Below are positions 4,658 through 34,861 of a stretch of 36,537 nt of DNA, piece after piece (within the stretch, counting starts at the first letter, position 1; every line of letters begins with the position of its first letter). The DNA is from an uncultured Myxococcales bacterium. GTDB taxonomy: Bacteria; Myxococcota_A; UBA9042; DTJE01. A model generated the notes under the pieces. The model did not search any database, was not told the origin of the DNA, and worked only from the letters and a program-made list of their open reading frames with translations. The DNA lies in assembly GCA_903847405.1 (NCBI GenBank), contig CAINDP010000059.1, positions 1 through 36,537 on the forward strand, written 5' to 3'. Made by a program: the position numbers and the translations under genes.

Positions 4658-6577
4658 TCAGCGTGCCGGCCGGTCCTCGACCAGCGTGTCGCTGCCGGGC
4701 ACGCCGGCCTGCGCGCCTGCCCGACGGCCGAAGACCCGCGGGCGGACGCCGATCCCGAACATCCGCGACAACACGTACAGCATCACGGCCAGGATCACGG
4801 CCGTCGAACCGCCCACGATGGCCGTGATCTTCTGGTTGTTGCGGATCCGCATCTCGACGTCCGCCAGGGACTGGCGCGACACCAGCACGGCCAGGATGTC
4901 GTCTTCGGGGACGCCCTGGTGGCAGGCCCGACAGACCGTTTCGTTGACCAGCGGGCGCATCACGGTCAGCACGTGCTCGCTGTCCAGTTCCTCGTCGCGG
5001 ACCACCACGCGCTTGCCGGCCAGCACCGAGGCCCAGGTTTCGGGGCTGATCTTCAGCCGCTGGAGGACCGGGTGCGGCACGACGGCGGGGGGCGGGTTCG
5101 CGTCCGCAGCGGCGCCGGCACCCAGGGTCGGCGACGGGCCCTCCCAGGCCGGCGACCCGTCCGGACGCAGCACTTCCAGGGACGTCAAGCCGGGCACGTG
5201 GCGGATCCGGTTCACCAGCGTGCGGGCCACCTGGGGACGCTCCTCCAGCATCGCCGCGCGGAGGGCCCGGTCCAGGGTTTCGGCCTGGTACTCGCCCGCG
5301 CGCCGGCCGAACTCCCGCAGGGACGCGTTCGTCCGATCCAGGTTGAACAGGACGACGGCCCCGAACGCGATGGTCAGCAGGACCACCGACGACACCAGGA
5401 CCGCGGCGGCCGCCAGCACGGGACGGCTGCCTTCGATGCGCTTGCGGACGCGTTCCACGGGGGTGGGCGGTCGGACCGACACCGGGTGGCCCGCCAGCCA
5501 GGCGTCGATGTCGTCGGCGAAGGTCGCCGCGGACGGGTACCGGCGGGCCGCGTCCTTTTCCATGGCCTTCAGGCAGATGGTTTCCAGGTCCGGGGAAAGG
5601 ATCCGGCCCAGGGTCCGTCGGGCCGCTTCGGACGGCCGTTCGGGTTCCTTCCGGATCACGTCCATCATCACGATCAGGGGCTGGTCGCCGGCGAAGGGCG
5701 GGGCGCCGGCCAGCAGGTGGTACATCGTGGCGCCCAGCGAGTACACGTCGCTGAGGGGACCGATGCTGTTCAGTTCGCCGTTGGCCTGCTCGGGGGGCAT
5801 GTACCACGGAGTGCCCACGGGGCGCCCCGCATAGGTCATCCCGGTATCCTGGTCCAGCGTCTTGGCGATGCCGAAGTCGCTGACGTGGGGCACGCCGTCG
5901 GGGTCCACCAGGATGTTGTCCGGCTTGACGTCGCGGTGGACGATGCCCTGCCGGTGGGCATGGTCCAGGGCGCGCGCCACCTGGACCAGGATCCGCAGTC
6001 CTTCCCGCAGGGACTCGTCGCCCGTCCGGCCCATCCAGGCCGAAAAGGGCCGGGACTCGATGTATTCCATCACGAAGAAGTACAGGCCCCGATCCTCGCC
6101 GGCGTCGAAGATCCGGACGATGTTCGGGTGATCCAGGCGACCCGCCAGCATCGCTTCGTTCTGGAATCGGAGGATTTCGAGGTCGGAGGAGTGCTCGCCG
6201 CCGGTCAGCACCTTGACCGCGCAGGTCCGTCGCAACCGCAGGGAATAGGCGCGGTACACGACGCCCATCGCCCCGCGACCCAACTGATCCAGGATGTCGT
6301 AGGCGCCGATCCGCATGCGGACGTCGGTCGAACGGTGCGGCACCTGGACGAGGCGCTCGGGGGCGGCCTCGCCCTCCTCCAGCACCCGGCCCCCTGCGGC
6401 CACCACGACGCCGTCGGCGTACCGGATGCCGTACAGCCCGGCGGGTGTGACGCCCAGCCAGGGACGCAGCGCCTCGGGATACCCCCCGGGCCTGGATCCG
6501 CACTGCGGGCAGGCGGGCTCGCCCGCGTGGTTGGCCACCTTCCTGGCGCCGCAGTTCGTGCAGAACCCTTCCAGCAC
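4658..6577 (-). CDS. Ser/Thr kinase with CXXCH-bearing periplasmic sensor
   Basis: A 639-aa transmembrane Hanks-type kinase. From the N-terminus it has a zinc ribbon (Cys6/Cys9 and Cys23/Cys26), then a kinase core (GRGAMGVVY loop, Lys122, HRDVKPDN at 214-221, DFG at 234-236, GTPWYMPPEQ). A membrane helix follows at about 387-410, then an external region of some 180 residues, and a second helix at about 592-612. The external region ends in VCRACH (Cys549, Cys552, His553), the covalent haem c motif. The surrounding pattern (PLVN...CRACH...ILAVLVS) is like the haem-binding PAS-type sensors of deltaproteobacterial receptors. I infer a redox or ligand sensor that controls cytoplasmic phosphorylation. 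The start is a GTG at 6577 after GAGGAAGG. It is divergent from the phoB-like gene. Confidence 0.85.
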   Translation of the reverse strand: MLEGFCTNCGARKVANHAGEPACPQCGSRPGGYPEALRPWLGVTPAGLYGIRYADGVVVAAGGRVLEEGEAAPERLVQVPHRSTDVRMRIGAYDILDQLGRGAMGVVYRAYSLRLRRTCAVKVLTGGEHSSDLEILRFQNEAMLAGRLDHPNIVRIFDAGEDRGLYFFVMEYIESRPFSAWMGRTGDESLREGLRILVQVARALDHAHRQGIVHRDVKPDNILVDPDGVPHVSDFGIAKTLDQDTGMTYAGRPVGTPWYMPPEQANGELNSIGPLSDVYSLGATMYHLLAGAPPFAGDQPLIVMMDVIRKEPERPSEAARRTLGRILSPDLETICLKAMEKDAARRYPSAATFADDIDAWLAGHPVSVRPPTPVERVRKRIEGSRPVLAAAAVLVSSVVLLTIAFGAVVLFNLDRTNASLREFGRRAGEYQAETLDRALRAAMLEERPQVARTLVNRIRHVPGLTSLEVLRPDGSPAWEGPSPTLGAGAAADANPPPAVVPHPVLQRLKISPETWASVLAGKRVVVRDEELDSEHVLTVMRPLVNETVCRACHQGVPEDDILAVLVSRQSLADVEMRIRNNQKITAIVGGSTAVILAVMLYVLSRMFGIGVRPRVFGRRAGAQAGVPGSDTLVEDRPAR

Positions 6578-6608
6578 CCCGCCTTCCTCGGTGCGGTGAA
6601 GCCGAGCC

Positions 6609-6614
6609 AGTATA
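6609..6614 (-). promoter_or_regulatory. Possible -10 element of the kinase gene
   Basis: TATACT on the minus strand (5 of 6 to TATAAT) lies 32 nt before the GTG start of the Ser/Thr kinase. No convincing -35 is found 16-18 nt upstream, so an activator or another sigma factor may be needed. Confidence 0.3.
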
Positions 6615-6680
6615 ACGGACGACGGGATTCGGGTGCGAGAGAACGGGCCGGCGGTGTGCCAGCGGCGCGCCCCCGGTGCG

Positions 6681-6710
6681 TTGCCGCGTCGCGCGGGGGC
6701 ATGGTATAAA
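6681..6710 (+). promoter_or_regulatory. Sigma70-like promoter of the phoB-like operon
   Basis: TTGCCG (6681-6686), an 18-nt spacer and TATAAA (6705-6710) match the vegetative consensus at 4/6 and 5/6 positions. The predicted start near 6717 leaves a leader of about 70 nt that contains the hairpin at 6743-6770. No pho-box direct repeats (CTGTCAT type) were seen near it. Confidence 0.5.
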
Positions 6711-6742
6711 CGCGCCCGAAGGGACATGAACGACCCGTCGGA

Positions 6743-6770
6743 CGGACCCCGGGGCGGGTTGCGGGGTCCG
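6743..6770 (+). promoter_or_regulatory. Leader hairpin before the phoB-like gene
   Basis: CGGACCCC (6743-6750) and GGGGTCCG (6763-6770) form a perfect 8-bp stem around a 12-nt GC-rich loop. It ends 18 nt before the ATG and just ahead of the ribosome site GGGAGGGA. Such a stem could stabilise the mRNA or limit ribosome access. No U-tract follows, so it is not a standard terminator. Confidence 0.4.
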
Positions 6771-6788
6771 TTGTTCCTGGGAGGGACC

Positions 6789-7481
6789 ATGTCGCGCACC
6801 GTGCTGATCGTCGAGGACGAATTCGATTTTGCGGACGTCGTTGCGCTGAACCTGCGGCGCGCGGGCTTCGAAACCGTGGCCGTCCGGTCGGGCGAGGCCG
6901 GCATCGCCGAGGCCCGCCATCGAAAGCCCGACCTGGTCCTCCTGGACCTGATGCTGCCCGACATGATGGGCACCGAGGTGTGCCGGCGGCTGAAGTCGGA
7001 CCCCGGCACCCGTGGCATCCCCGTCGTGATGGTCACCGCCCGCGGCGAGGAAATCGACCGCGTCGTCGGCTTCGAACTGGGCGCCGACGACTACGTGGTC
7101 AAGCCCATCAGCATGCGCGAACTGGTCCTGCGCGTGAACGCGGTGCTGCGGCGCAATCCCCAGGTGGCCGACGACTCCGAGGCTCCCTCGATGGCCTTCG
7201 GCCCCCTGCGCGTGGACGGCCCGTCCCACCGGGTCTTCGTCGACGAGGTCGAGGTCAGCCTGACCGCGCTGGAGTTCCGCCTGCTGGTGGCCCTGCTGTC
7301 CCGGCCGGGCCGCGTGCTGTCCCGCGAGTCGCTGCTGGACCAGGTCTGGGGGCTCCAGGCCGAGGTCGAGACCCGCACCGTGGACACGATGATGAAGCGG
7401 GTCCGCGACAAGCTGGGGACGGCCGGACGGCACCTGGAAACGGTTCGCGGGGTCGGCTACCGATTCTCGGACCAGGATTGA
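6789..7481 (+). CDS. PhoB/OmpR-family response regulator
   Basis: A 230-aa DNA-binding response regulator. The receiver domain has the acidic pocket ED(E) at 9-11, phospho-acceptor Asp53 (LLDLMLPD), Thr83 region (VMVTARG) and Lys105 (DDYVVKPIS). The C-terminal winged helix carries LTALEFRLLVALLSRPGRV and the recognition/turn segment ending in RGVGYRF. This is the PhoB/OmpR layout and size. The ATG at 6789 has GGGAGGGA a few nt upstream. The histidine kinase gene follows 7 nt after the stop, so the pair is one operon. It is phoB-like in sequence style, but no pst or phoU gene is nearby, so a phosphate role is not established. Confidence 0.92.
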   Translation: MSRTVLIVEDEFDFADVVALNLRRAGFETVAVRSGEAGIAEARHRKPDLVLLDLMLPDMMGTEVCRRLKSDPGTRGIPVVMVTARGEEIDRVVGFELGADDYVVKPISMRELVLRVNAVLRRNPQVADDSEAPSMAFGPLRVDGPSHRVFVDEVEVSLTALEFRLLVALLSRPGRVLSRESLLDQVWGLQAEVETRTVDTMMKRVRDKLGTAGRHLETVRGVGYRFSDQD

Positions 7482-7488
7482 CGCCACG

Positions 7489-8853
7489 ATGCTCGGACTT
7501 CGGCAGCGCCTGTTCCTGGCGGTCGTCATCCCGGTGACGCTGATCGCGGCCGTGGTCCTGTTTGTGGGCCGGTTCCGGATCGACGTGATCCTGGGGACCG
7601 TGCCCCTGGTCGTCACCGCCGTCGTCGCGTCCTGGTGGTTCGCGGGGCGCGAGGACCGGCGGCTGCGGCGGATGGCCGACGCCGCCCTGCGCATGGCCGC
7701 CGGCGACTTCAACGTCGAACTGCAGGATCGGCAGGGCGACGACGTGTCGCGCCTGGCCCAGGCCCTGAACCGGCTGGCCGATGCCTCGGCGTCCACCTTC
7801 CACCGCCTGGAAACCGAAAGCCGCCTGGTGCGGTCGATCATCGAAACGATGCGGGAAGGCGTGATGGCCGTGGACCAGGACGGACGCATCACCCTGGTCA
7901 ACGACGCCATGCTGGGCCTGACGGGCCATCGGGGGGCCGCGGCGGGCCTGTCTCCGGCCGAGGTCATCCAGGCGCCCGAACTGCTGCAGGCCATCCAGGA
8001 GGTCCTGGAGGGCAACGCCGTGTCCCGCGAGATTTCGGTGTCCCGCCCCCAGCCCGCGACCCTGCTGGTCAACGGCGCACCCCTGGCCGACGGGGAGGGC
8101 GCCCTGGCCGTCGTGCACGACACCACCGAACTGCACCGCCTGCACCAGATGCGGCGCGATTTCGTCGCGAACGTCAGCCACGAACTGCGCAACCCCGTGG
8201 CCACGATCCAGGCGGCGGTGGAAACGCTGGGCGCCTTCGCCGACGACGCGCCCTCCGGGGACGACGAGCGGCGCCTGCTGGCCACGATCTCGCGGCAGAC
8301 GGCCCGCATGGCCGCCCTGGTGCGGGATCTGCTGGGCCTGGCCCGGATCGAAAGCGGGCAGGTCGTGCTGGAACCCCGGTCCACCAACCTCGACGACCTC
8401 ATGTCGGGAATCCTGTCGGCCTTCGAGGGTGCCGCGAAGGACAAGGGCCTTTCGTTCGACCTCGAGGTGGCCTCGGGGACTCCGCGGGCGATGTGCGACG
8501 CGTCGGCGCTGCACACGGTCATCGGCAACCTGCTGGACAACGCCGTCAAATACGCCCGGCCCGGCGATCGGATCGAGGTGCGCCTCCGGGACGGCCGGGA
8601 CGGGCACGTGGCGATCGACGTGTCCGACACGGGGCCCGGGATCGCCGACGAACACCTGCCTCGCCTGTTCGAGCGCTTCTACCGGGTGGACGCGGGGCGC
8701 TCCAGGGAACTGGGGGGCACCGGCCTGGGCCTGGCGATCGTCAAGCACCTGTGCGCCGCCATGGGAGGCAGCGTGTCGGTCCGGTCCGCGGTCGGCGTGG
8801 GGACCACCTTCACGGTGCTGCTTCCGGCCGCATGGGACACGCCGGCAGCCTGA
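7489..8853 (+). CDS. PhoR-like sensor histidine kinase
   Basis: A 454-aa membrane kinase, partner of the upstream regulator. Two membrane helices (about 7-27 and 32-52) have only a few residues between them, so there is no periplasmic sensor domain. Then come a HAMP-like linker, a PAS-like domain (about 110-215, EGVMAVDQDGRITLVNDAM), HisKA with His231 (VSHELRNPV), and a HATPase with N box (NLLDNAVKYA), DTGPGI, and GTGLGLAIV. This is the architecture of PhoR, which senses through interaction with transport proteins rather than by a ligand loop. It ends at 8853; the next 200 bp hold a structured repeat. Confidence 0.92.
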   Translation: MLGLRQRLFLAVVIPVTLIAAVVLFVGRFRIDVILGTVPLVVTAVVASWWFAGREDRRLRRMADAALRMAAGDFNVELQDRQGDDVSRLAQALNRLADASASTFHRLETESRLVRSIIETMREGVMAVDQDGRITLVNDAMLGLTGHRGAAAGLSPAEVIQAPELLQAIQEVLEGNAVSREISVSRPQPATLLVNGAPLADGEGALAVVHDTTELHRLHQMRRDFVANVSHELRNPVATIQAAVETLGAFADDAPSGDDERRLLATISRQTARMAALVRDLLGLARIESGQVVLEPRSTNLDDLMSGILSAFEGAAKDKGLSFDLEVASGTPRAMCDASALHTVIGNLLDNAVKYARPGDRIEVRLRDGRDGHVAIDVSDTGPGIADEHLPRLFERFYRVDAGRSRELGGTGLGLAIVKHLCAAMGGSVSVRSAVGVGTTFTVLLPAAWDTPAA

Positions 8854-8939
8854 CCGCAAGCCTCCGCGGAACCTGCCGAATCCCGTCGTTTTCTAGGCGT
8901 TCCGCAGCGACCTCTCCTAGACTTCCCACGGTGCCTGTT

Positions 8940-9021
8940 CCCGCCCGAGCACGTAGGCGGAGGCGATGGGATTGCACAGCAATCTCTCGCCGGAGACGGA
9001 GTCGCCTCGGGCGACACTGAA
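8940..9021 (+). ncRNA. 82-bp structured repeat, copy 1 (candidate leader RNA)
   Basis: This segment resembles the two tandem copies at 16260-16422. The outer stem is CGCCCGAG with CTCGGGCG. An asymmetric internal loop has conserved ACGTAGGCGGA on the 5' side and AGACGGAGTCG on the 3' side. The inner hairpin GGCGA(T)GGGATTGC/GCAATCTCTCGCC is closed by an ACA loop, and the tail is CACTGAA. Compared with copies 2 and 3, the inner stem changes GGCATG/CATGCC to GGCGA/TCGCC, so pairing is kept. Conserved loops with compensating stem changes suggest a functional RNA. It ends 35 nt before the first gene of the acylation operon. It does not match any riboswitch class I know, including the c-di-GMP-I (GEMM) core. 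A DNA-level repeat is the alternative. Confidence 0.5.
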
Positions 9022-9056
9022 TATTGTGCTTCCGGGACCCATTCCGGGGAGGGGCG

Positions 9057-10103
9057 ATGTCGGCCGGCGGACGATCGTGGGGACCTGTGCTGCTGACGAT
9101 CCTGTGCGCGCTGGCCACGCTGGCGGCCGTGGATGCGGCCCTGCACCTGGTGGCGCCTCCCAAGCCCCTGCTGGAAATCGACCAGGCGATGGACCAGTAC
9201 GCGGCCGGCGATCCGGCGGTGCTGGCCCTGGGGTCCAGCCATGCCCGGTCGTTCATCGCGATGGACAAGGCGCTGTCCCAGCGGACCGACGGAGCCCGGC
9301 GCATCCAGGCCGTGCCGGTCGAGTGGGGGAAGTACACCCCCTACGCGTGGGTCCTGAAGCACCGGATCCTGCCGATCCTCACGGAACGCAACGCATCCGG
9401 CGCCCTGGTGCGTCCCTCCCTGCGGCACGTCCTGCTGGTGACGGAATGGTGGGATTCGACCGCCCTGGACCCCGGCACGGGCAGCATCACCATGGCCCTT
9501 CCCGCCCGCGCCTGGCAGTGGGGTGACTTCTTCGCCGACCTGGGCGAAAACGGCCTGACGCCCTACAACCAGAACTTCCTGCAGCGGATCTGGCGGGAAT
9601 GGTGGTCGGTTTCGACGCTGGTCCAGGATCGGGGCTACGAAAACATCACGAAGGGCCTGCGGGAGGCCGTCCGCGGGAAGGACCTGGAGGCCGAGCGCGC
9701 GTCCTACGACAACCGCCTGAAGGGCTGGCAGTCGATGGTCGAGGAAGGCGCGGGCCACCTGTTCGACCCGGCGCAGAAGCAGTCGCTGGAGGAAATGGTC
9801 GGCACCCTGCAGGGCCTGGGGCTGGACGTGACGATCGTGCTGTACCCGCGGATGCCCGGGACCCTCAGTGCGAAGGCGAAGGAAACGACCCTGCGGCAGT
9901 TTTCCGACCGGATGCAGGCGTTCACCCGGGACCATCGCCTGCGCTTCGTGGACATGACGTTCACGAACCCGCTGACGGACGACGACTTCGAGGTCGACTT
10001 CGACCACGTGAAGCCCGAGGGAAACCGGCGCCTGGCCGAGTGGGCGCTGGACGGTGACCTGGCGTTCCTGGCAGGGAAGGGCGCGACGGGAGGTGCGCAA
10101 TGA
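9057..10103 (+). CDS. DltD/AlgJ-like SGNH-fold membrane-anchored protein
   Basis: A 348-aa protein with one N-terminal membrane helix (about 9-32) and an exported SGNH-hydrolase-like domain. Block I is LALGSSHA (candidate nucleophile Ser61) and block V is DFDHVKPEGN (Asp314, His317), so a full Ser-Asp-His set is possible. SGNH partners of MBOAT proteins (DltD, AlgJ/AlgX) complete transfer of an acyl group to a cell-surface polymer. The gene overlaps the MBOAT gene by 4 nt (ATGA), and carrier and ligase genes follow, giving a four-part Dlt-like set. The ATG at 9057 has GGGGAGGGG upstream and lies just after the structured repeat. Overall similarity to named families is low by eye; the call rests on motifs and context. 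Confidence 0.75.
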   Translation: MSAGGRSWGPVLLTILCALATLAAVDAALHLVAPPKPLLEIDQAMDQYAAGDPAVLALGSSHARSFIAMDKALSQRTDGARRIQAVPVEWGKYTPYAWVLKHRILPILTERNASGALVRPSLRHVLLVTEWWDSTALDPGTGSITMALPARAWQWGDFFADLGENGLTPYNQNFLQRIWREWWSVSTLVQDRGYENITKGLREAVRGKDLEAERASYDNRLKGWQSMVEEGAGHLFDPAQKQSLEEMVGTLQGLGLDVTIVLYPRMPGTLSAKAKETTLRQFSDRMQAFTRDHRLRFVDMTFTNPLTDDDFEVDFDHVKPEGNRRLAEWALDGDLAFLAGKGATGGAQ

Positions 10104-11587
10104 GCCTCGTCGGCCTGGAGTTCGCCTTCTTCTTCCCCGTCGTCTTCCTGGTGCACTGGCTGGGGCCGCGTCGCGCGGCGTGGCAGAACGCGGTCCTGCT
10201 GCTGGCCAGCGTCGCGTTCTACGCCACCTGGAACCTGAAACTGCTGGGGGTTCTGGCCGCGGCGACGGCGGTGTCCTTCGGCGCCGGCGTCCTGCTGTCG
10301 GTCCTGGGGGCCGGGGAACAGGATCCGGTCCGGGCGGCCGTCGGCCAGCGCAAGCGCAAGGCCGTCCTGGTGGCGTCGATCGTCGCGGAACTGGGCCTGC
10401 TGGGCGTGTTCAAGTACGCCGGGTTCTTTGCCGAGTCGTTCAATGCCCTGCTGGGGGCGCTGGGCATGCCCGATGCCCTGCCGGTGCTGCGCCTGGTGCT
10501 GCCGCTGGGCATTTCGTACACGACGCTGATCCAGGTGGGCTACCTGCTGGAAGTCTACTGGGGGCGCGCCCCGGCGTGCCGCGATCCGCTGGCGTACTCG
10601 GTCTTCGTGGGCTTCTTCCCGCAGTTGATCGCCGGACCGATCGTCCGGGCCCGGACCATGCTGACGCAGTACCTCGTGCCGCGGCACCTGGCGCCTGCGG
10701 GCATGGCGGCGGGGGCCGGGACCTTCCTGCTGGGGTTCGTCATGAAGGCCTTCGTGGCCGACTGGCTGTCCCCGCGGGTCGTGGATCCGGTCTTCGCGGA
10801 CCCGGCCTCCTTCGGCGCCGGCGCCCTGTGGATCGCGCTGTTCGGGTACGCCACGCAACTGTTCTGCGACTTCGCGGGCTACTCGCTGATGGCCATCGGC
10901 ACCGGGCGCATGTTCGGCCTGGAACTGCCCGAAAACTTCCGGTACCCGTTCCTGTCCAAGAGCCTGGCCGAGTTCTGGCGCCGGTGGCACATCAGCCTGA
11001 ACACCTGGCTGTTCGACTACCTGTTCGCGCCGCTGACCACCGGCCGGTCGTGGTTCCGTGGCCGGGCGGGGGCGGGCTTCCTGGTGGTGTTCCTGGTGTC
11101 GGGCCTGTGGCACGGGGCGACCTGGACGTTCGTGCTGTGGGGCCTGGCGCACGGCGTCGCCCTGGCCGGGCACCACGCCTACGACGAGTGGTACAAGCGC
11201 CGGTGCCGCGCCGATCGGCGGTACGTCGCGTGGCGCAAGGCGACGCCGTACCTGCTGGCCTCGTGGTTCGTCACGCAGGCCTTCTTCGTCCTGACCCTGA
11301 TCCCGTTCCGGGCGCCCAGCATCGGCGCGGCCGCCGACTTCGCGAAGGGGCTGCTGGGCCTGGGGGGCGTCGAGGGCCTGGGCCAGCGCTTCGGGCTGCA
11401 GGCCGCGGCGTGCGTGCTGTTCTTCGTCGGGTTCCACCTGCTGGAAATCGGTCCCGGCCCGGCCTGGAAGGCGCGCTTTCTGGCGCTGCCGGTCCCGGTG
11501 CGCGGGGTCTTCTATGGGCTGGTCCTGGCGTTCCTGCTGGTGTACGTTCCCGTTGGTGCCAGCACCTTCATCTACGCGCAGTTCTAG
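10100..11587 (+). CDS. MBOAT acyltransferase (AlgI/DltB-like)
   Basis: A 495-aa multi-pass membrane O-acyltransferase. Family marks are GISYTTLIQVGYLLEVYWG (139-157), the cytoplasmic-side FAGYSLMAIG (258-267), LPENFRYPF (276-284), EFWRRWHISL with His297, and SGLWHGATW with the presumed catalytic His338, followed by WGLAHG with His351. MBOAT proteins of this branch move an acyl group from a cytoplasmic donor (acyl-carrier protein in Dlt, an unidentified acetyl donor in alginate systems) across the membrane to an extracellular acceptor. The start overlaps the SGNH gene (ATGA). A carrier protein gene begins 12 nt after the stop, favouring an ACP-linked donor. Length and helix pattern are normal for AlgI/DltB. 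Confidence 0.92.
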   Translation: MSLVGLEFAFFFPVVFLVHWLGPRRAAWQNAVLLLASVAFYATWNLKLLGVLAAATAVSFGAGVLLSVLGAGEQDPVRAAVGQRKRKAVLVASIVAELGLLGVFKYAGFFAESFNALLGALGMPDALPVLRLVLPLGISYTTLIQVGYLLEVYWGRAPACRDPLAYSVFVGFFPQLIAGPIVRARTMLTQYLVPRHLAPAGMAAGAGTFLLGFVMKAFVADWLSPRVVDPVFADPASFGAGALWIALFGYATQLFCDFAGYSLMAIGTGRMFGLELPENFRYPFLSKSLAEFWRRWHISLNTWLFDYLFAPLTTGRSWFRGRAGAGFLVVFLVSGLWHGATWTFVLWGLAHGVALAGHHAYDEWYKRRCRADRRYVAWRKATPYLLASWFVTQAFFVLTLIPFRAPSIGAAADFAKGLLGLGGVEGLGQRFGLQAAACVLFFVGFHLLEIGPGPAWKARFLALPVPVRGVFYGLVLAFLLVYVPVGASTFIYAQF

Positions 11588-11599
11588 GAGGAGGGACCG

Positions 11600-11866
11600 A
11601 TGACACGGGCCGACATGCGACGACTGCTGATCGACTGGCTGGACGACCACTACCACTTCGGCGATGCCGAATCGAAGATCGGCAGTGATGACGCCTCGTT
11701 CCTGGACAAGGGCGTCCTGGACAGCCTGGGCTTCGTGGCCCTGGTCGTCTACCTGGAGGACACGTTCCGGGTGACGATCGATCGCCGCAGCCTGAACCGC
11801 GAGAACTTCGACAGCGTCGACAAGATCCTCGCGTACCTGGAGGCCCGGACCGGAGCGGTCCCATGA
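11600..11866 (+). CDS. Acyl carrier protein (DltC-like)
   Basis: An 88-aa acidic carrier protein. The phosphopantetheine site is GVLDSLGFV with Ser42, in the classic DSL context at the start of helix II. It is preceded by the ATG with AGGAGGG about 5 nt upstream. Its stop overlaps the ligase start (ATGA), so ligase and carrier are translationally coupled. DltC has the same size and the same place between an adenylating ligase and an MBOAT. I infer that the neighbouring AACS-like enzyme loads an acid onto the pantetheine of this protein, and that the MBOAT takes the acyl group from it. A role in fatty-acid synthesis is less likely, since no fab gene is close. Confidence 0.9.
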   Translation: MTRADMRRLLIDWLDDHYHFGDAESKIGSDDASFLDKGVLDSLGFVALVVYLEDTFRVTIDRRSLNRENFDSVDKILAYLEARTGAVP

Positions 11867-13857
11867 GCGCCGACGAACGCCCGGTCTTCGTTCCGGATCC
11901 GGAAACGGCGGCCCGGTCGCAGATGGCGGACTTCCTGGGGACCTGCGCCCGCCGCACCGGCAACACCTTCGAGGACTGGCCGACGTTTTCGCGGTGGTCG
12001 GCGGCCTGCTGGCGGGACTTCTGGCGCCTGTTCCTGGAATGGGCCGCCCCGGAGTTCGAGGGCAGTCCCGAGCCTGTCTGCGTCGGCGACGCCATCGAAA
12101 CCGCGACCTTCTTCCCGGACCTGCTGCTGTCGTACACCGGCAACCTGCTGCGGTCGGGCACCCCGGTCCAGGAGGATGCCGTCGCGCTGATCGTCCGGGA
12201 CGAATCGGGTCGCCGGGCCCAGTGGACGCGCCGCGAATTGCGGTCGCGGGTCGAGGCCGCCGCCCGGGCCCTGCGCGCCCGGGGCATCGGGGTCGGGGAC
12301 CACGTCGTCGCGATCGCCCGGAACGACGACGCCGCGATCGTGGCGTGCCTGGCCGCCACCGGCCTGGGCGCCACCTGGTCCTCCATCGGGCCCGACCAGG
12401 GCCCCGAGGCGATGCTGGCGCGCTTCCGGCAACTGGATCCGTGCCTGCTGTTCGCCGTCGGATCCCAGCCGTACCAGGGCGCGTCGCGGTCCCTCCGCGA
12501 GCGGCTGGAAGCGGTCGTCGCGGGCCTGCCCTCGGTGCGTGCCCTCGTGTCGCTGGACGGGGACGTCGCCGCCCTCGACGGCCTGGACCGGCCCGTCCTG
12601 ACGCTGGCCGGGCTGGAGTCCGAGGGCGCGGCGGGCGAATCCTTCCCCTGGCCGTGCGTGCCGTTCAACCATCCGCTGTTCGTGATGTTCTCGTCGGGGA
12701 CGACTGGCGCGCCCAAGTGCATCGTCCACGGCGTGGGCGGCACGCTGCTGGAGCACCTCAAGGAGCAGCGCCTGCACTCGGACTTCCAGTCCGGGGATCG
12801 CCTGCTGTTCACGACGTCGTGCGGCTGGATGATGTGGAACTGGCAACTGTCGGCCCTGGCGTCGCACACGACGATCGTGGCCTACGACGGCTCCCCGACG
12901 TACCCGACCCTGGATGCCCTGTGGCGGGTCGTGGCCGAGGAGGGCGTCACCGTCTTCGGGACCAGCCCGGCGTTCCTGGGATATTGTCGCGACACGGCCA
13001 TCGTCCCCCGGGAGGTGGTCGACCTGGCAGCCCTGCGCGCGATGCAATCGACCGGTTCGGTGCTGGGCGAACGGCTGTACGACTGGGTCGCCCAGAACGT
13101 GAAGCCCCTGCCGCTGCAGTCCATTTCGGGCGGGACCGACATCCTGGGGTGCTTCGTCCTGGGCAACCCGCTGCTGCCGGTGCGGCGCGGCGAGGCCCAG
13201 TCGGTCAGCCTGGGCATGGACGTGCGGTCCCTGCGGACCGACAGCCTGGCGGGCGACGGGGTGGGCGAACTGGTGTGCGGCAACCCGTTCCCCTCGCGGC
13301 CCCTGGGCCTGTTCAACGATCCCGGGGGCGAGCGGTTCCACCAGGCCTACTTCGCCCAGAACGAGGGCCTCTGGACCCACGGCGACTTCCTGGTCCTGAC
13401 GCCCCACGGAGGCGCTCGCATCCTGGGCCGCAGCGACGGGGTCATGAACATCCGGGGGATCCGCATCGGGCCCGCCGAGATCTACACGATCCTGCTGGAC
13501 ATCCCGGAGGTTCGGCATGCCATGGCCGTGGAGCAGCAGGCGCCCGAGGACCCGGGCGGCACCCGGTTGGTGCTGCTGCTGGTCCTGCGGGACGGCGTGA
13601 TCCTGGACCGTCCTTTGACCCTGCGGATCAAGAAGGAAATCGCCCAGAGGTCCTCGATGATCCACGTGCCGGCGGTCATGGTCGCCGTGGAGGACCTCCC
13701 GGCCACGCACAACGGGAAGATGTCGGAACGGGCCGCGCGGGATGCGGTCAACGGGAAGATCCCGGCGAACCTGGCGGCCCTGCGCAACCCCGCGTGCCTG
13801 GAGGCACTGCGCACCCACCCGGACCTGGGCGGACGATTCGGAGGCCGGGAAGGCTGA
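11863..13857 (+). CDS. Acetoacetyl-CoA synthetase-like adenylate-forming ligase
   Basis: A 664-aa acyl-adenylate synthetase. An N-terminal ACAS_N-like segment (FEDWPTFSRWSAACWRDFW) precedes the AMP-binding domain with core motif FSSGTTGAPK (276-285). The segment CGWMMWNWQLSALA followed by YDGSP is typical of acetoacetyl-CoA synthetases. The A8 region is NIRGIRIGPAEIY, and the C-terminal catalytic lysine is in PATHNGK (Lys619). Length fits AACS (about 650-680). By family it would activate acetoacetate (or a related short 3-oxo or 3-hydroxy acid) with ATP and CoA. By context it takes the place of DltA and may load the acid onto the adjacent carrier, to which its start codon is fused (ATGA). That transfer to ACP rather than CoA is inference. 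The hybrid kinase gene starts 14 nt downstream. Confidence 0.88.
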   Translation: MSADERPVFVPDPETAARSQMADFLGTCARRTGNTFEDWPTFSRWSAACWRDFWRLFLEWAAPEFEGSPEPVCVGDAIETATFFPDLLLSYTGNLLRSGTPVQEDAVALIVRDESGRRAQWTRRELRSRVEAAARALRARGIGVGDHVVAIARNDDAAIVACLAATGLGATWSSIGPDQGPEAMLARFRQLDPCLLFAVGSQPYQGASRSLRERLEAVVAGLPSVRALVSLDGDVAALDGLDRPVLTLAGLESEGAAGESFPWPCVPFNHPLFVMFSSGTTGAPKCIVHGVGGTLLEHLKEQRLHSDFQSGDRLLFTTSCGWMMWNWQLSALASHTTIVAYDGSPTYPTLDALWRVVAEEGVTVFGTSPAFLGYCRDTAIVPREVVDLAALRAMQSTGSVLGERLYDWVAQNVKPLPLQSISGGTDILGCFVLGNPLLPVRRGEAQSVSLGMDVRSLRTDSLAGDGVGELVCGNPFPSRPLGLFNDPGGERFHQAYFAQNEGLWTHGDFLVLTPHGGARILGRSDGVMNIRGIRIGPAEIYTILLDIPEVRHAMAVEQQAPEDPGGTRLVLLLVLRDGVILDRPLTLRIKKEIAQRSSMIHVPAVMVAVEDLPATHNGKMSERAARDAVNGKIPANLAALRNPACLEALRTHPDLGGRFGGREG

Positions 13858-13871
13858 CCGGGAGGACGAGG

Positions 13872-16259
13872 ATGCTGGGAGGTGCGCGCGTGCGACCGGG
13901 CGGCCAGGGTGCTCCGGGCCATGGCGGGGACTGTCATGCCATCGTGAACGCCTCGACGGAAGCGGTGTTCGTCACCGACCGCGACGGCGTCATCCTGGAC
14001 ATCAACGACACCGTTCCGAAGATGTTCGGATGCACGCGGGAGCAGGTGCTGTCCGTCACGATGAAGCGGTTCAGCATCGACGAACCGCCCTACACGCGCG
14101 ACCAGGCGTTCCTGGTGTTGTCCACGGCTCTCGAAAGCGGCGTCGCCCACACCGACTGGCGCGCGCGCCGCTGGGACGGGGAACTTTTCTGGGTCGAGGC
14201 GTCGCTGTCCCGGGTCGTCATGGGCGACGACGACCGCGTTGCGATCTTCGTGCGCGACATTTCCGAGCGGAAGCGGATCGAGGAGGAACTGCGGGTCGCC
14301 AAGGAAACGGCCGAGACGGCCACCCGGACCAAGAGCGAGTTCCTGGCCAACATGAGCCACGAGATTCGCACACCCCTGAACGCCATCGTCGGGATGACGA
14401 AACTGACCCTCGACACGCCGCTCAGCGAGGAACAGAGCGAGAACCTGTCCATCGTGCGGGAGGCGGCCGACGCGCTGCTGAACCTGGTCAACGACATCCT
14501 GGATTTTTCAAAGGGCGAGGCGAAGCGCATCGAACTGGAGAACATCGCCTTCGACCTGCGCTCCACGGTGGACCACGCCCTGGACACGATCGCGATCCGC
14601 GCCCACGAAAAGGGCCTGGAACTGGTCAGCCTGGTGGACGCCGAGGTGCCGTCCCGGCTGATCGGCGACCCGGGTCGCCTGCGCCAGGTGCTGGTGAACC
14701 TGCTTTCGAACGCGGTGAAGTTCACGGACAAGGGGGAAACCTCCCTGGAGGTCCGGGTCGAGGAGGAGCGCGACGACCTGGTGGTCCTGCGTTTCGTCGT
14801 GTCGGACACGGGAATCGGCATCCAGGCCGAGCACCTGGACCGGATCTTCGAGGCCTTCGCCCAGGCCGACGGCAGCATCACGCGGCGGTACGGCGGCACG
14901 GGCCTGGGCCTGGCCATCTGCAAGCAGATCGCGGATCTGATGGGCGGGTCGATCGGCGTCGAGTCGAGGATGGGCGCGGGCAGTTCGTTCGTGCTCACGG
15001 TGCCGTTCCGCCTGCAGGCGGGCGCGGCCGACCCCCTTCCGCCGCCTCCGGCCAACCTGCGGGGCATGCGCGTCCTGGTGGCCGACGACACGCCGTCGAA
15101 CCGCTTCGTGCTGGCCCGGATGCTGAAGCAGTGGGGATGCCGGGCCGAGGCCGTGCCCGACGGGGCGGCGACCCTGGTGGCGCTGGAAAAGGCCCGGCAG
15201 GACGGGGACCCCTACAGCGTCGTCCTGCTGGACATGCTGATGGACGGGATGGACGGCGAGGAAACGGCCCGCCGGGTCAAGACCGACCCCGGCATCGCCA
15301 AGACGCCCATCCTGGTGCTGACCTCCCTGGGACGGCGGGGCGACGCCCGACGCCTGCAGGACATCGGCGTGGCCGGCTACCTGTTGAAGCCGGTCAAGCA
15401 GGCCCAGTTGCTGGACGCCGTCTGCCAGGCCGTGTCGCCGAACGTCGAAGGCGCCGAGGCCCGGCCCCTGATCACGCGCCACACCCTGAAGGAGCGGCTG
15501 TTCGACGGGCTGCACGTGCTGCTGGTCGAGGACAAGGTGTTCAACCAGAAGGTTGCGACGAAGTTCCTGCAGCGGCGCGGCCTGCGGGTCACGGTGGCCG
15601 ACAACGGCAAGGTCGCGGTCGAAACGCTGCGCACCCTGCGGGTGGACCTGGTGCTGATGGACGTGCAGATGCCGGTGATGGACGGACTGGAGGCCAGCCG
15701 CGAGATCCGCCGGGAAGAGGCCGGAGCGGGGGGCGGGCGGCGCGTGCCCATCGTAGCCACCACGGCCCACGCCATGGACGGCGACCGGGAGCGGTGCCTG
15801 GCCGCCGGGATGGACGACTACGTCACGAAGCCGATCCAGGAGGACGAACTGTTCGGCGTCCTGGGCCGGTGGCTGCCGCTGCCCGAGCCGAAGCCGGTGC
15901 CGATGGTCCGCGAGCCCGCCAGCGCCGTGGAGGCCGAACTGGAACTGGTGAAGGCGCGGTTCGGCGACGATCCGGCCTTCCTGGCCGAGATCGCGAACCT
16001 GTTCCTGGAGGACACGCCCAGGGAACTGGCGGAACTGGACGAAGCCGTGCGCATGACGGATTCCGAGCGGGCGATGGTCCTGGCCCACGGCCTGAAGGGC
16101 ACGGCCCGGACCTTTGGGGTCGAGGGTCTGGCCAGCCTGTTCCAGGCCATCGAGGGCATGATGCGGGGCCGGCAGTTCCAGGAGGCCCGGGAGGCCCTGG
16201 CCCGGGCCCGCGCGTTGTTCGCGCTGGTCGAGCGGGGGCTGCGCAAGACGTTGGGTTGA
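13872..16259 (+). CDS. Hybrid histidine kinase, PAS-HisKA-HATPase-REC-REC-HPt
   Basis: A 795-aa soluble multi-step phosphorelay protein; no membrane helix or signal peptide is seen. Order: PAS (about 20-135, ASTEAVFVTDRDGVILDIN), coiled linker, HisKA with His163 (MSHEIRTPLN), HATPase (N box LLSNAVKF, DTGIGI, GTGLGLAIC), receiver 1 (about 399-520, Asp454, Lys507), receiver 2 (about 547-668, Asp597, Lys653) and a C-terminal HPt with His739 (LAHGLKGTARTFG). This is the BarA/ArcB-type full relay. The ATG at 13872 has GGAGGACGAG just upstream. It lies 14 nt behind the ligase, so it is probably the last gene of the acylation operon, and the REC-GGDEF gene downstream is a natural phosphate acceptor. 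Receiver 2 reads VEDKVFNQ where VEDNxVNQ is usual. Confidence 0.93.
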   Translation: MLGGARVRPGGQGAPGHGGDCHAIVNASTEAVFVTDRDGVILDINDTVPKMFGCTREQVLSVTMKRFSIDEPPYTRDQAFLVLSTALESGVAHTDWRARRWDGELFWVEASLSRVVMGDDDRVAIFVRDISERKRIEEELRVAKETAETATRTKSEFLANMSHEIRTPLNAIVGMTKLTLDTPLSEEQSENLSIVREAADALLNLVNDILDFSKGEAKRIELENIAFDLRSTVDHALDTIAIRAHEKGLELVSLVDAEVPSRLIGDPGRLRQVLVNLLSNAVKFTDKGETSLEVRVEEERDDLVVLRFVVSDTGIGIQAEHLDRIFEAFAQADGSITRRYGGTGLGLAICKQIADLMGGSIGVESRMGAGSSFVLTVPFRLQAGAADPLPPPPANLRGMRVLVADDTPSNRFVLARMLKQWGCRAEAVPDGAATLVALEKARQDGDPYSVVLLDMLMDGMDGEETARRVKTDPGIAKTPILVLTSLGRRGDARRLQDIGVAGYLLKPVKQAQLLDAVCQAVSPNVEGAEARPLITRHTLKERLFDGLHVLLVEDKVFNQKVATKFLQRRGLRVTVADNGKVAVETLRTLRVDLVLMDVQMPVMDGLEASREIRREEAGAGGGRRVPIVATTAHAMDGDRERCLAAGMDDYVTKPIQEDELFGVLGRWLPLPEPKPVPMVREPASAVEAELELVKARFGDDPAFLAEIANLFLEDTPRELAELDEAVRMTDSERAMVLAHGLKGTARTFGVEGLASLFQAIEGMMRGRQFQEAREALARARALFALVERGLRKTLG

Positions 16260-28101: not shown

Positions 28102-28217
28102 CTGGGGTCCTCCGTCCAATCCGGAAAGCAGGTGGAAACTACAGCAAGGTTCAAGGGTGTGCAACGCCCAGATGACAGGGTTCCGGGGGGGTAGTCAGAT
28201 TCGGCACTCCCCGACGA

Positions 28218-28236
28218 TCCACCGTCCATTGGTGGA
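28218..28236. promoter_or_regulatory. Inverted repeat, candidate TetR operator
   Basis: TCCACC-N7-GGTGGA is a perfect 6-bp inverted repeat, 19 bp in all, ending 18 nt before the ATG of the metallopeptidase gene and ahead of GGGAGGAAG. Its position and size suit a TetR dimer site. A short mRNA hairpin is the alternative. Confidence 0.4.
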
Positions 28237-28254
28237 GCGCTCGGGAGGAAGTTG

Positions 28255-30030
28255 ATGGTTGACGCAACTCCGCGGATCGCGGATACCTGCCGTGGGCAAG
28301 GCGCGGAGGGCATCGTGGGGCGGCTGGGGTCGGGTGTGGCGGTTGCGATGGCGCTGCTGGCGATGGCGTGTGCGAAGGAGGGGACCGTGGTGAAGACCGG
28401 CGACGGCGACGGCGGATCGGCGGTCCAGGCGAAGGCCTTCCTGGACGGCTACAACGCCCGGCGGCTGGACCTGGACAAGGCCTCCGCGCTGTCCTACTGG
28501 AAGGCCGCCAACAGCGGCAAGAAGGAGGACTTCGAGGCGGCGGCGGCGGCGGACCTGGTTTCCCGGACGTACCACAGCGACCGCGCGGCGTTCCAGACCA
28601 TCGGCCGGTTGCTGCAGTCCGCGGACCGGTTGGACGCGATCACGGTGCGCGCGCTGCGGGTCGCGAAACTGGCGTACGAAGAAAACCAGTTGCCGGCGGA
28701 CGTGCTGCAGGAACTGGTGTCGAAGGCCTCGCAGATCGAGCAGGTCTTCAACACCTACCGGGCGACCATGGACGGCAAGGCCTACACGAACAACGAGCTG
28801 CTGGAAGCCCTGGAAAACGAAAAGGTTTCCAACCGGCGGCAGGCGATCTGGGAGGCCCTGAAGCAGGTTGGCGCGAAGGTGGCCCCGCTGCTGGTGGACC
28901 TGGCGCACGTGCGCAACCGCGCGGCCGTCACGCTGGGGTACGCGAACTACTGGGAAATGAAGATCCGCATGCAGGAGCACGACCCGGCGATGCTGGTGGC
29001 GCTGTTCGACCGGCTGGAAAAGGAGACGGACGCGCCGTTCGCGGCGATGAAGAAGCGGCTGGATGCCGAGATTTCGAAGCGCCTGGGCGTCGCCCCGGCG
29101 GCGATGATGCCGTGGCACTACGACAACCCGTTCTTCCAGGCGGCGCCGCCCTCGCCGAAGGTGGACCCGGACGTCTTCTACGAAACCCGCAAGCGCGAGG
29201 ACATCGTCGCGCTGGCGCAGCAGTTCTACACCGACATCGGCCTGCCGCTGGACTCGATCATCGCCCGGTCGGACTACTACGACCGCGAGGGCAAGGACCA
29301 GCATGCGTTCTGCATGGACGTGGACCGGGCCGGCGACGTCCGGATGCTGCTGAACATCCAGCCCAAGGCCGAATGGATGGACACGATGCTGCACGAGTCC
29401 GGCCACGCGGTGTATTCGGCGTACAACGACCCGTCGCTGCCCTTCAACATCCGGGACGCCGCCCACATCCTGACCACGGAGGGCGTGGCGATGCTGTTCG
29501 GGGCGCTGGGCAAGAACCCCACGTGGATGGTCGCCTACGCGGGCGTGGACAAGGCGAAGTCCGACGCCGCGGCTGCGGACCTGTACGAGCAGCGCCGCCG
29601 CGAGCAGTTGATCTTCGCCCGCTGGGCGATGGTGATGTTCCGGTTTGAAAAGGCCCTGTACGAAAACCCCGACGGCGACCTGAACACGCGGTGGTACGAC
29701 GTGGTCGAGCGGCTGCAACTGCTGAAGCGGCCTGCGGGACGGGACCAGGCGGACTGGGCGGCCAAGCCCCACTTCACGATCGCGCCGGTGTACTACCACA
29801 ACTACCTGCTGGGCGAACTGTTCGCGGCGCAGTTGCGGGCGAAGATGGCGGCGATGTCGGGCCACAAGGGGCCGGCGTCCACCCTGTCCTTCAACGGGCG
29901 CAAGGACTTCGGGAAGTACCTGATCGACGAGGTCTTCCGTCCCGGGATGCGGTGGGAGTGGCCCGAGTTCGTGCGCCGCGCGACCGGCCGTCCCCTGGGG
30001 CCCGAGGCCTTCGCCGCCGAGGTGCAGTAG
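28255..30030 (+). CDS. M2/M3-type zinc metallopeptidase lipoprotein
   Basis: A 591-aa secreted zinc peptidase (clan MA) resembling bacterial peptidyl-dipeptidase A (M2, ACE-like) proteins. The zinc motif is HESGH (380-384) and the third ligand is probably Glu409 (HILTTEGVAM). The late segment HFTIAPVYYHNYLLGELFA matches the substrate-binding Tyr/His region of the family. A signal peptide with lipobox LLAMAC precedes an acidic Gly-rich linker, so the enzyme is membrane-anchored. Two starts are possible: ATG 28255 (GGGAGGAAG upstream) and GTG 28315 (GGAGGG upstream). The second gives a more normal signal peptide (MGRLGSGVAVAMALLAMAC). The MATE-like gene starts 6 nt after the stop. The division between M2 and M3 is by eye only. 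Confidence 0.82.
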   Translation: MVDATPRIADTCRGQGAEGIVGRLGSGVAVAMALLAMACAKEGTVVKTGDGDGGSAVQAKAFLDGYNARRLDLDKASALSYWKAANSGKKEDFEAAAAADLVSRTYHSDRAAFQTIGRLLQSADRLDAITVRALRVAKLAYEENQLPADVLQELVSKASQIEQVFNTYRATMDGKAYTNNELLEALENEKVSNRRQAIWEALKQVGAKVAPLLVDLAHVRNRAAVTLGYANYWEMKIRMQEHDPAMLVALFDRLEKETDAPFAAMKKRLDAEISKRLGVAPAAMMPWHYDNPFFQAAPPSPKVDPDVFYETRKREDIVALAQQFYTDIGLPLDSIIARSDYYDREGKDQHAFCMDVDRAGDVRMLLNIQPKAEWMDTMLHESGHAVYSAYNDPSLPFNIRDAAHILTTEGVAMLFGALGKNPTWMVAYAGVDKAKSDAAAADLYEQRRREQLIFARWAMVMFRFEKALYENPDGDLNTRWYDVVERLQLLKRPAGRDQADWAAKPHFTIAPVYYHNYLLGELFAAQLRAKMAAMSGHKGPASTLSFNGRKDFGKYLIDEVFRPGMRWEWPEFVRRATGRPLGPEAFAAEVQ

Positions 30031-30036
30031 ATCGTC

Positions 30037-31395
30037 TTGAACACCCCCGACACCGACACTCCGTCCCCGCCCGCGGTCGATGCGGTCGTACTGAACGGCC
30101 CTGCCGTGTTCCGCGCCTGGTGGCCCCTGGCCGCCTCGTGGCTGATGATGGGCCTGGAACTGCCCCTCGTGGGCGCGACCATGGCCCGGCTGCCCGACCC
30201 CCGGATATCGCTGGCTGCATATGGCGGCGTGGTCTTCCCGATCTCGCTGGTGATCGAGGGCCCGATCATCATGCTGCTGTCGGCGTCGGTGGCCCTGGCC
30301 CGTGACCGGGCGTCGTACCGCCTGATGCGGCGGTTCATGTGGCAGTCGATCGCCTTCCTGACGGCCCTGCACGCGCTGGTGGCCTTCACGCCCCTCTATG
30401 ACGTCGTGGCCGGGGACTGGCTGGGCGTGCCCGCCGAAACGCTGGAGCCCGCCCGGATCGGCCTGCAGATCCTGACGTTCTGGACCGGGTCCATCGCCTA
30501 TCGCCGGTACCAGCAGGGCGTCCTGATCCGGTTCGGGTCGTCCAGCATGGTGGGCCTGGGGACCGGCGTCCGCCTGCTGGCCAACCTGCTGGTCCTGGGG
30601 GCGGGCCTGGCCCACGGCGGGATTCCCGGGATCGTCGTCGGCGCGTCGGCCGTGGCCGCCGGGGTGCTGTCCGAGGCGGTCTTCATGGGGTTTGCGGTGC
30701 GACCGGTCCTGCGGGACTGTGTGTACCGGGCGCCTGCCGAGGCGGTGCCCCTGACGCTGCCCGTGTTCCTGCGGTTCTACGTGCCCCTGGCCCTGACGCC
30801 CCTGATCACGCTGCTGTCGATGCCCCTGGCCAGCGCGGCGGTCAGCCGGATGCCCCAGGCGATCGATTCGCTGGCGGCCTGGCCGGTGGTCAACGGTGTC
30901 GTGTTCCTGTTGCGCAGCCTGGGGTTCGCCTTCAACGAGGTCGTGGTGGCGCGCGTCGAGCGGCCCGGCGCCATCGGGGCCCTGCGCCGCTTCGCGATCC
31001 TGCTGGGGGCGGGGGTGTCGCTGGCCCTGGTGCTGATCGCGGCGACGCCCCTGGGGCACCTGTGGTTCGCGGACATGTCGGCCCTGGCCCCGGACCTCGT
31101 TGCCCTGGCCCGGTCGGCCCTGTGGTGCGCGCTGCTGCTGCCGGCCCTGGCGGTCCAGCAGAGCTGGTACCAGGGGCTCCTGGTCACCAGCCGCAGCACC
31201 CGGGCCATCACCGAGGGCGTGCTGGTGTTCCTGGCGGTGTTCGGCGGGATCCTCGTGGCCGGCGTCGTCGACGGGACGATCACCGGGTTGTACGTCGGGA
31301 TCCTGGCCACCGCGGCCGGGAGCGTCGCCCAGAACCTGTGGATGCGGGTGCGATCGCGGGCGTACCTGGCAACGCTGGCCGCGTCCGGCGGGTGA
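30037..31395 (+). CDS. MATE-like multi-spanning transporter
   Basis: A 452-aa membrane protein with about twelve predicted helices arranged as two similar halves (ELPLVGATMARLPDP in the first, LSMPLASAAVSRMPQA in the second). That internal similarity is what MATE/MOP flippases and the ANKH group show. It would export a small molecule or flip a lipid-linked one; no substrate can be named. The frame opens with a TTG at 30037, 6 nt after the peptidase stop, with GAGGTG rather far upstream, so the start is uncertain. It is probably co-transcribed with the peptidase and may be under the TetR regulator. Confidence 0.7.
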   Translation: MNTPDTDTPSPPAVDAVVLNGPAVFRAWWPLAASWLMMGLELPLVGATMARLPDPRISLAAYGGVVFPISLVIEGPIIMLLSASVALARDRASYRLMRRFMWQSIAFLTALHALVAFTPLYDVVAGDWLGVPAETLEPARIGLQILTFWTGSIAYRRYQQGVLIRFGSSSMVGLGTGVRLLANLLVLGAGLAHGGIPGIVVGASAVAAGVLSEAVFMGFAVRPVLRDCVYRAPAEAVPLTLPVFLRFYVPLALTPLITLLSMPLASAAVSRMPQAIDSLAAWPVVNGVVFLLRSLGFAFNEVVVARVERPGAIGALRRFAILLGAGVSLALVLIAATPLGHLWFADMSALAPDLVALARSALWCALLLPALAVQQSWYQGLLVTSRSTRAITEGVLVFLAVFGGILVAGVVDGTITGLYVGILATAAGSVAQNLWMRVRSRAYLATLAASGG

Positions 31396-31419
31396 GGGCG
31401 CGTCCGCGTCCACGTCCGG

Positions 31420-31468
31420 AAATGGGGACAGACACCGATTTCGCGAAAATGGGGACAGACACCGATTT
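31420..31468 (+). repeat. Two direct 22-bp REP-like repeats
   Basis: Two identical 22-bp units (31420-31441 and 31447-31468) have the core GGGGACAGACACCG flanked by AAAT and ATTT. They are separated by CGCGA. The ends are near-complementary (AAATGG... with ...CCGATTT), so each unit is a weak hairpin. From memory, this motif and its complement are widespread intergenic repeats in proteobacterial genomes, often discussed with REP-associated (Y1/IS200-like) transposases. No transposase lies in the window. It sits between the MATE-like gene and the promoter of the second kinase gene. Confidence 0.7.
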
Positions 31469-31496
31469 TCCCCGCGCGCCTGGGCAGCCCCCACCC

Positions 31497-31525
31497 TTGA
31501 AGCGGACCGCGGGGCGGGGTACAAC
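31497..31525 (+). promoter_or_regulatory. Sigma70-like promoter of the second Ser/Thr kinase gene
   Basis: TTGAAG (31497-31502), a 17-nt spacer and TACAAC (31520-31525) lie just after the REP-like repeats. Transcription would start near 31532, about 14 nt before the ATG, leaving room only for the ribosome site CGGAG. The TACAA-type -10 recurs at 94-89 and 25859-25854. Confidence 0.5.
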
Positions 31526-31545
31526 CGGACCAACGGAGACGCACG

Positions 31546-32730: not shown

Positions 32731-32754
32731 GCCCGGCGCCCGGAGGGAGTGTCG

Positions 32755-34851: not shown

Positions 34852-34861
34852 GGGGCGGGAC

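Follow-up and report, generated by a model that had tools for sequence, protein, structure and literature searches.

The D-alanylation of teichoic acids by the Dlt system (DltABCD and DltX) combines a ligase and a carrier with an MBOAT and an SGNH protein. A comparable ligase-carrier-acyltransferase logic operates in a Gram-negative envelope, where Vibrio AlmEFG places glycine on lipid A; AlmE is specific for amino acids, and AlmG is not known to belong to the MBOATs, unlike their counterparts in the cassette described below, which is likened to AlmEFG at the level of this general logic. Outside Dlt, MBOAT-SGNH pairs such as PatA/PatB and AlgI/AlgJ have no carrier and are evidently acyl-CoA users, and their MBOAT ends in FXYXXF, the acyl-shuttle motif defined for DltX and PatA (PMC12148441).

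The cassette lies in a contig of an uncultured Myxococcales bacterium that was analysed as a whole (36,537 nucleotides, hereafter the window); a Myxococcota origin would also fit the large genomes, rich in kinases and with Asp-rich lipoproteins. A sequence-only reading had assigned its four genes (Table 1) to the four functions of the Dlt pathway, with an acetoacetyl-CoA synthetase (AACS)-type ligase replacing DltA, and family matches and comparison with the PDB agree on this assignment; the shuttle tail of the MBOAT, a further SGNH-MBOAT pair of the genome and ligase-carrier fusions, all described below, had escaped that reading. Akin to Dlt, the cassette encodes a ligase, a carrier with a DSL serine, an MBOAT of the DltB fold and an SGNH-fold protein like DltD. 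However, the ligase is of AACS type rather than DltA, the shuttle tyrosine is on the MBOAT and no DltX-like ORF is near; the cassette would work like Dlt but, on account of these two parts, is not Dlt. It resembles PatA/PatB and AlgI/AlgJ in pairing an MBOAT that bears a C-terminal FXYXXF with an SGNH partner, but since those pairs lack a carrier and the cassette has a dedicated carrier and ligase, it mixes both known layouts. The best reading is a hybrid build of Dlt-type carrier loading, a PatA/AlgI-type shuttle and a ligase type that the papers searched do not connect with carriers. We consider it quite probable that the cassette is a Dlt-like, carrier-fed transmembrane acylation pathway with an AACS-type ligase. 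The pairing of such a ligase with a carrier and an MBOAT-SGNH pair appears to be new, and the open-licence literature searched held nothing relevant on AACS-type carrier loading or on an MBOAT-carrier operon outside Dlt. If true, this would be a third donor logic in bacterial surface acylation, in which a dedicated non-amino-acid acyl-carrier feeds an MBOAT-SGNH relay.

Table 1. Features of the cassette, in positions of the window.
Feature	Position	Strand	Basis or detail
SGNH-fold exported acyltransferase gene (function predicted)	9057-10103	+	ATG at 9057, one N-terminal membrane anchor
MBOAT acyltransferase gene, DltB fold	10100-11587	+	PF03062, His297 (WRRWH), His338 (WHG)
FIYAQF acyl-shuttle motif (FXYXXF, Tyr492), MBOAT C-terminus	11567-11584	+	sequence
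Carrier protein gene, 88 aa, phosphopantetheine Ser42 (codon 11723-11725)	11600-11866	+	PF00550
AACS-type adenylating ligase gene, 664 aa, carrier-linked clade	11863-13857	+	PF00501, NCBIfam
Ligase A8 loop residues N529-G532 (NIRG)	13447-13458	+	NPGG in other AACS

Gene order and conservation

The four open reading frames at 9057-13857 proved to be real genes in a tight run, with the carrier/ligase ATGA junction and the DSL serine (Ser42) as first described. A second ATGA overlap joins the SGNH and MBOAT genes, the MBOAT and carrier genes are 12 bases apart with GGAGG upstream of the carrier ATG, and third-position GC is 0.89-0.95 across all four frames. Genes for a response regulator and a PAS histidine kinase (6633-8853), which may control the cassette, lie directly upstream, as they do in G002 (L113).

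Relatives were expected to keep the gene order or the co-occurrence of the genes, and they do. The full SGNH-MBOAT-carrier-ligase run occurs in nine genomes (G000, G001, G002, G005, G011, G026, G015, G241 and G284), and the set is split in nine more: the SGNH gene is on another contig than the MBOAT-carrier-ligase run (G101, G290), carrier-ligase and SGNH-MBOAT are on different contigs (G007, G082, G106, G185, G332 and G268, the last with its MBOAT truncated by the contig end), or SGNH-MBOAT-carrier is apart from the ligase (G139). Because the set is conserved across the phylum, a chance origin is excluded. The cassette-type MBOAT and an SGNH gene were present in 18/18 genomes with a free-standing ligase and carrier, even if unlinked, whereas that type of MBOAT occurred in 0/14 of the genomes sampled for lacking the ligase. 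The one-sided p is about 2e-9, although it is not a strict probability since the genomes are related.

Carrier and fusion proteins

The carrier matches PF00550 (E=5e-5) and falls under the DltC cut-offs. Its serine is invariant in an alignment with 18 relatives, which share the subfamily signature WLDDxYHFG...DSLGF...ENFD, and the genome has two phosphopantetheinyl transferase genes. Among viral contigs we found no carrier relative, and the plasmids searched yielded distant carriers only (31-37% identical among the ten listed); the one annotated neighbourhood among these contains an asparagine synthase and another AMP-ligase rather than this cassette.

In two proteins the ligase is fused to a PP-binding domain, followed by a thioesterase in G296 (L152:474-3794) and by a GNAT domain in Bradyrhizobium sp. 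AUGA SZCCT0158 (L046:847-4227). Both genomes are without a cassette-type MBOAT, and a second Bradyrhizobium-type fusion was not found in 397 genomes of its order. These fusions are the strongest argument that ligases of this clade load carriers. Together with the altered CoA site described below, they support the proposal that the ligase serves the carrier and make charging of the carrier by a different enzyme unlikely.

The thioesterase fusion would also suit a pathway in which ligase and carrier feed NRPS/PKS-like or lipid biosynthesis and the MBOAT and SGNH protein would use or export the product on the carrier, the MBOAT donor being a longer, processed acyl group instead of the acid that the ligase activates. 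A gene for an NRPS-PKS-aminotransferase protein abuts the MBOAT-carrier-ligase run of G101, directly upstream of it (L204:3072-12487), so that another product, for example a secondary metabolite, is possible there. However, the genes flanking the cassette in the window and the other four-gene loci examined included none recognisable as encoding an elongating or tailoring enzyme, and we regard such a biosynthetic role as unlikely.

The ligase clade and its CoA site

The ligase exceeds the cut-offs of two acetoacetate--CoA ligase models (TIGR01217, 595 vs 521 bits, and PRK03584), besides matching PF00501. The nearest solved structure is an AACS (PDB 4wd1) of equal length and about 40% identity that shares the GWMMWN and SGGTD motifs. 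Matches to the window ligase in genomes of the same phylum fall into two sets, one at 45-87% identity (all but one at least 51%), which is linked to the carrier, and one at about 38-46%. When 127 AACS-type proteins were placed in a tree against acetyl-CoA synthetase as the distant group (a quick search without bootstrap), the 19 carrier-linked ligases formed one clade (SH-aLRT 100, branch length 0.85); separation from other AACS, a point set beforehand, was thus obtained. A carrier gene is directly upstream of 16 of these ligases, fused to two and elsewhere in one, whereas none of the 108 other AACS loci, some of them with short flanks, has a carrier.

While the adenylation motifs are kept (SSGTTG at 277, C-terminal K619), the CoA site is not. 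In acetyl-CoA synthetase, Arg191 and Arg584 bind the CoA phosphates, Arg584 the 3'-phosphate, and Arg526 contacts the adenylate (PMC10455477). The equivalent of Arg526, R534, is kept in 19/19 clade ligases, but R or K occupies position 594 (the Arg584 column) in only 9/19, as against 105/108 AACS; K or R occupies position 207, three after the Arg191 column, in 4/19 as against 106/108; and R occupies position 600 in 0/19 as against 105/108. The column equivalents given in acetyl-CoA synthetase numbering are those suggested by an aligned Chloroflexota AcsA and by the Salmonella sequence. The A8 loop differs too, reading NPGGVRIGTAEIY in AACS and N-I/V-R/K-G-I/V-RIGPAEIY in the clade: position 530 is P in 106/108 AACS and I/V in 19/19 clade members, and position 531 is G in 105/108 AACS and R/K in 17/19. 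The NRPS adenylation domain of the L204 protein has VKIRGFRIETGEVE in this loop, and its KIRGFRIE resembles the NIRGxRIG of the clade. Lost CoA-site residues and an NRPS-like A8 loop are what a switch from CoA to carriers would be expected to look like.

Given the score of the ligase, which clears the acetoacetate--CoA ligase cut-off, and the lack of any other AACS in its genome, one may ask whether it is a housekeeping enzyme that uses CoA and stands by chance beside an MBOAT/SGNH O-acetylation operon, the carrier having a different partner. Such an enzyme would not be expected in a separate clade, with the CoA-site residues lost (K207, R594, R600), the A8 loop changed and a carrier adjacent or fused in 18/19, nor to accompany the MBOAT clade in genomes where the two are not linked, and we hold this explanation to be very unlikely. 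If the ligase is a carrier loader, proteins automatically named acetoacetate--CoA ligases include carrier loaders, recognisable by NIRGxRIG in place of NPGGVRIG, and the system has been masked in databases by the name of a metabolic enzyme.

The proposed MBOAT-SGNH relay, its acyl group and its acceptor

The MBOAT (PF03062, E=1e-27) is closest to DltB in sequence and structure (TM-scores 0.60-0.76), although its 179 bits fall short of the 375 required by the LTA_dltB equivalog. Invariant residues also back its assignment as an MBOAT acyltransferase with His297 and His338. The Tyr and last Phe of its FIYAQF tail are kept in 19/19 cassette-type MBOATs, and by this tail it would be PatA/AlgI-like rather than DltB-like. 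As the MBOAT bears its own FXYXXF, DltX is not needed; at 8800-14100 there is no separate DltX-like ORF, the sole ORF ending in FXYXXF being the MBOAT. A small residue (A/G) after the shuttle Tyr was dropped as a clade-specific trait, NgPatA having FIYANF (PMC12148441). The cassette MBOATs form one clade (support 100/100), separate from other MBOATs of the same genomes; although the built-in tail is as in PatA (PMC12148441), this separate clade and its tracking of the carrier-ligase pair (18/18 vs 0/14) make an ordinary PatAB/AlgIJ-type O-acetylation pair on acetyl-CoA, with a redundant carrier, highly improbable. For the donor of the cassette MBOAT, the genomic evidence points to the carrier over acyl-CoA.

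The SGNH protein has an N-terminal helix but no Pfam or NCBIfam match. GSSH (S61) and D-x-x-H (D314/H317) are invariant across 17 relatives, and an AlphaFold (AF2) model (pLDDT 87) matched mostly SGNH hydrolases in a Foldseek search of the PDB, PatB (8tlb) and DltD (6o93) being listed as well. Motifs and model together are consistent with a predicted SGNH-fold exported acyltransferase.

In the carrier-fed pathway that we favour, the ligase would adenylate a small carboxylic acid and transfer the acyl group to the pantetheine on Ser42 of the carrier. The MBOAT, through His297 and His338 as in its family, would accept the carrier-bound acyl group at the cytoplasmic face of the membrane and pass it to Tyr492 of its tail, as in PatA; the serine of the anchored SGNH protein would then take it from Tyr492 and esterify an exported acceptor, for which a polysaccharide is the likeliest candidate.

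A glycan acceptor is favoured by the neighbours of the cassette in several genomes. In G015 its direct neighbours encode a 4'-phosphopantetheinyl transferase, an epimerase and a sugar aminotransferase. Genes for a flippase, an O-antigen ligase and GT87 are nearby in G290, G241 and G284, and the SGNH gene of G101 adjoins a PMT_2 glycosyltransferase gene. In the window, two-component genes rather than polysaccharide genes adjoin the cassette, which counts against the model.

Retention of the AACS motifs in the ligase pocket speaks for a small acid as substrate, perhaps a 3-oxo or 3-hydroxy acid, although two nearby motif positions differ (Y316F, S429G). We found no supply genes pointing to one particular acid. 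A link to 3-hydroxybutyrate or PHA was rejected, the genome being without a PHA synthase; nor did it contain a 3-hydroxybutyrate dehydrogenase above the family cut-off, an absence that carries little weight because weaker short-chain dehydrogenase matches are present in all genomes. Short hydroxyacyl decorations do exist in nature, as in the 3-hydroxybutanoyl groups on rhizobial polysaccharides (PMC5748678).

More tentatively, and as a conjecture that could well prove wrong, an AACS-derived clade may have switched from CoA to carriers as a general loader with three off-loaders (MBOAT-SGNH, thioesterase and GNAT), the MBOAT form decorating exported glycans with short acyl groups of the 3-oxo or 3-hydroxy type, for example acetoacetyl or 3-hydroxybutyryl. 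We know of no dedicated pathway for placing such groups on exported glycans.

Elsewhere the same genome encodes another SGNH-MBOAT pair (G000:C268:17185-19724; L164:7186-9725), which has neither a carrier nor a ligase with it. Its MBOAT is 75% identical to that of the cassette and ends in PIYGRF, and an orthologue of the pair is present in G002 (L203). This suggests that two acceptors might be fed by one acyl-carrier.

Elsewhere in the window, an open frame of 2276 codons without any Pfam match (28198-35025, minus strand) may owe its openness to high GC content rather than to coding. A Ser/Thr protein kinase gene (4658-7036, minus strand) encodes a C-terminal half that weakly matches a chemoreceptor sensor domain and contains CRACH (CxxCH), and the product is possibly a haem-sensing kinase.
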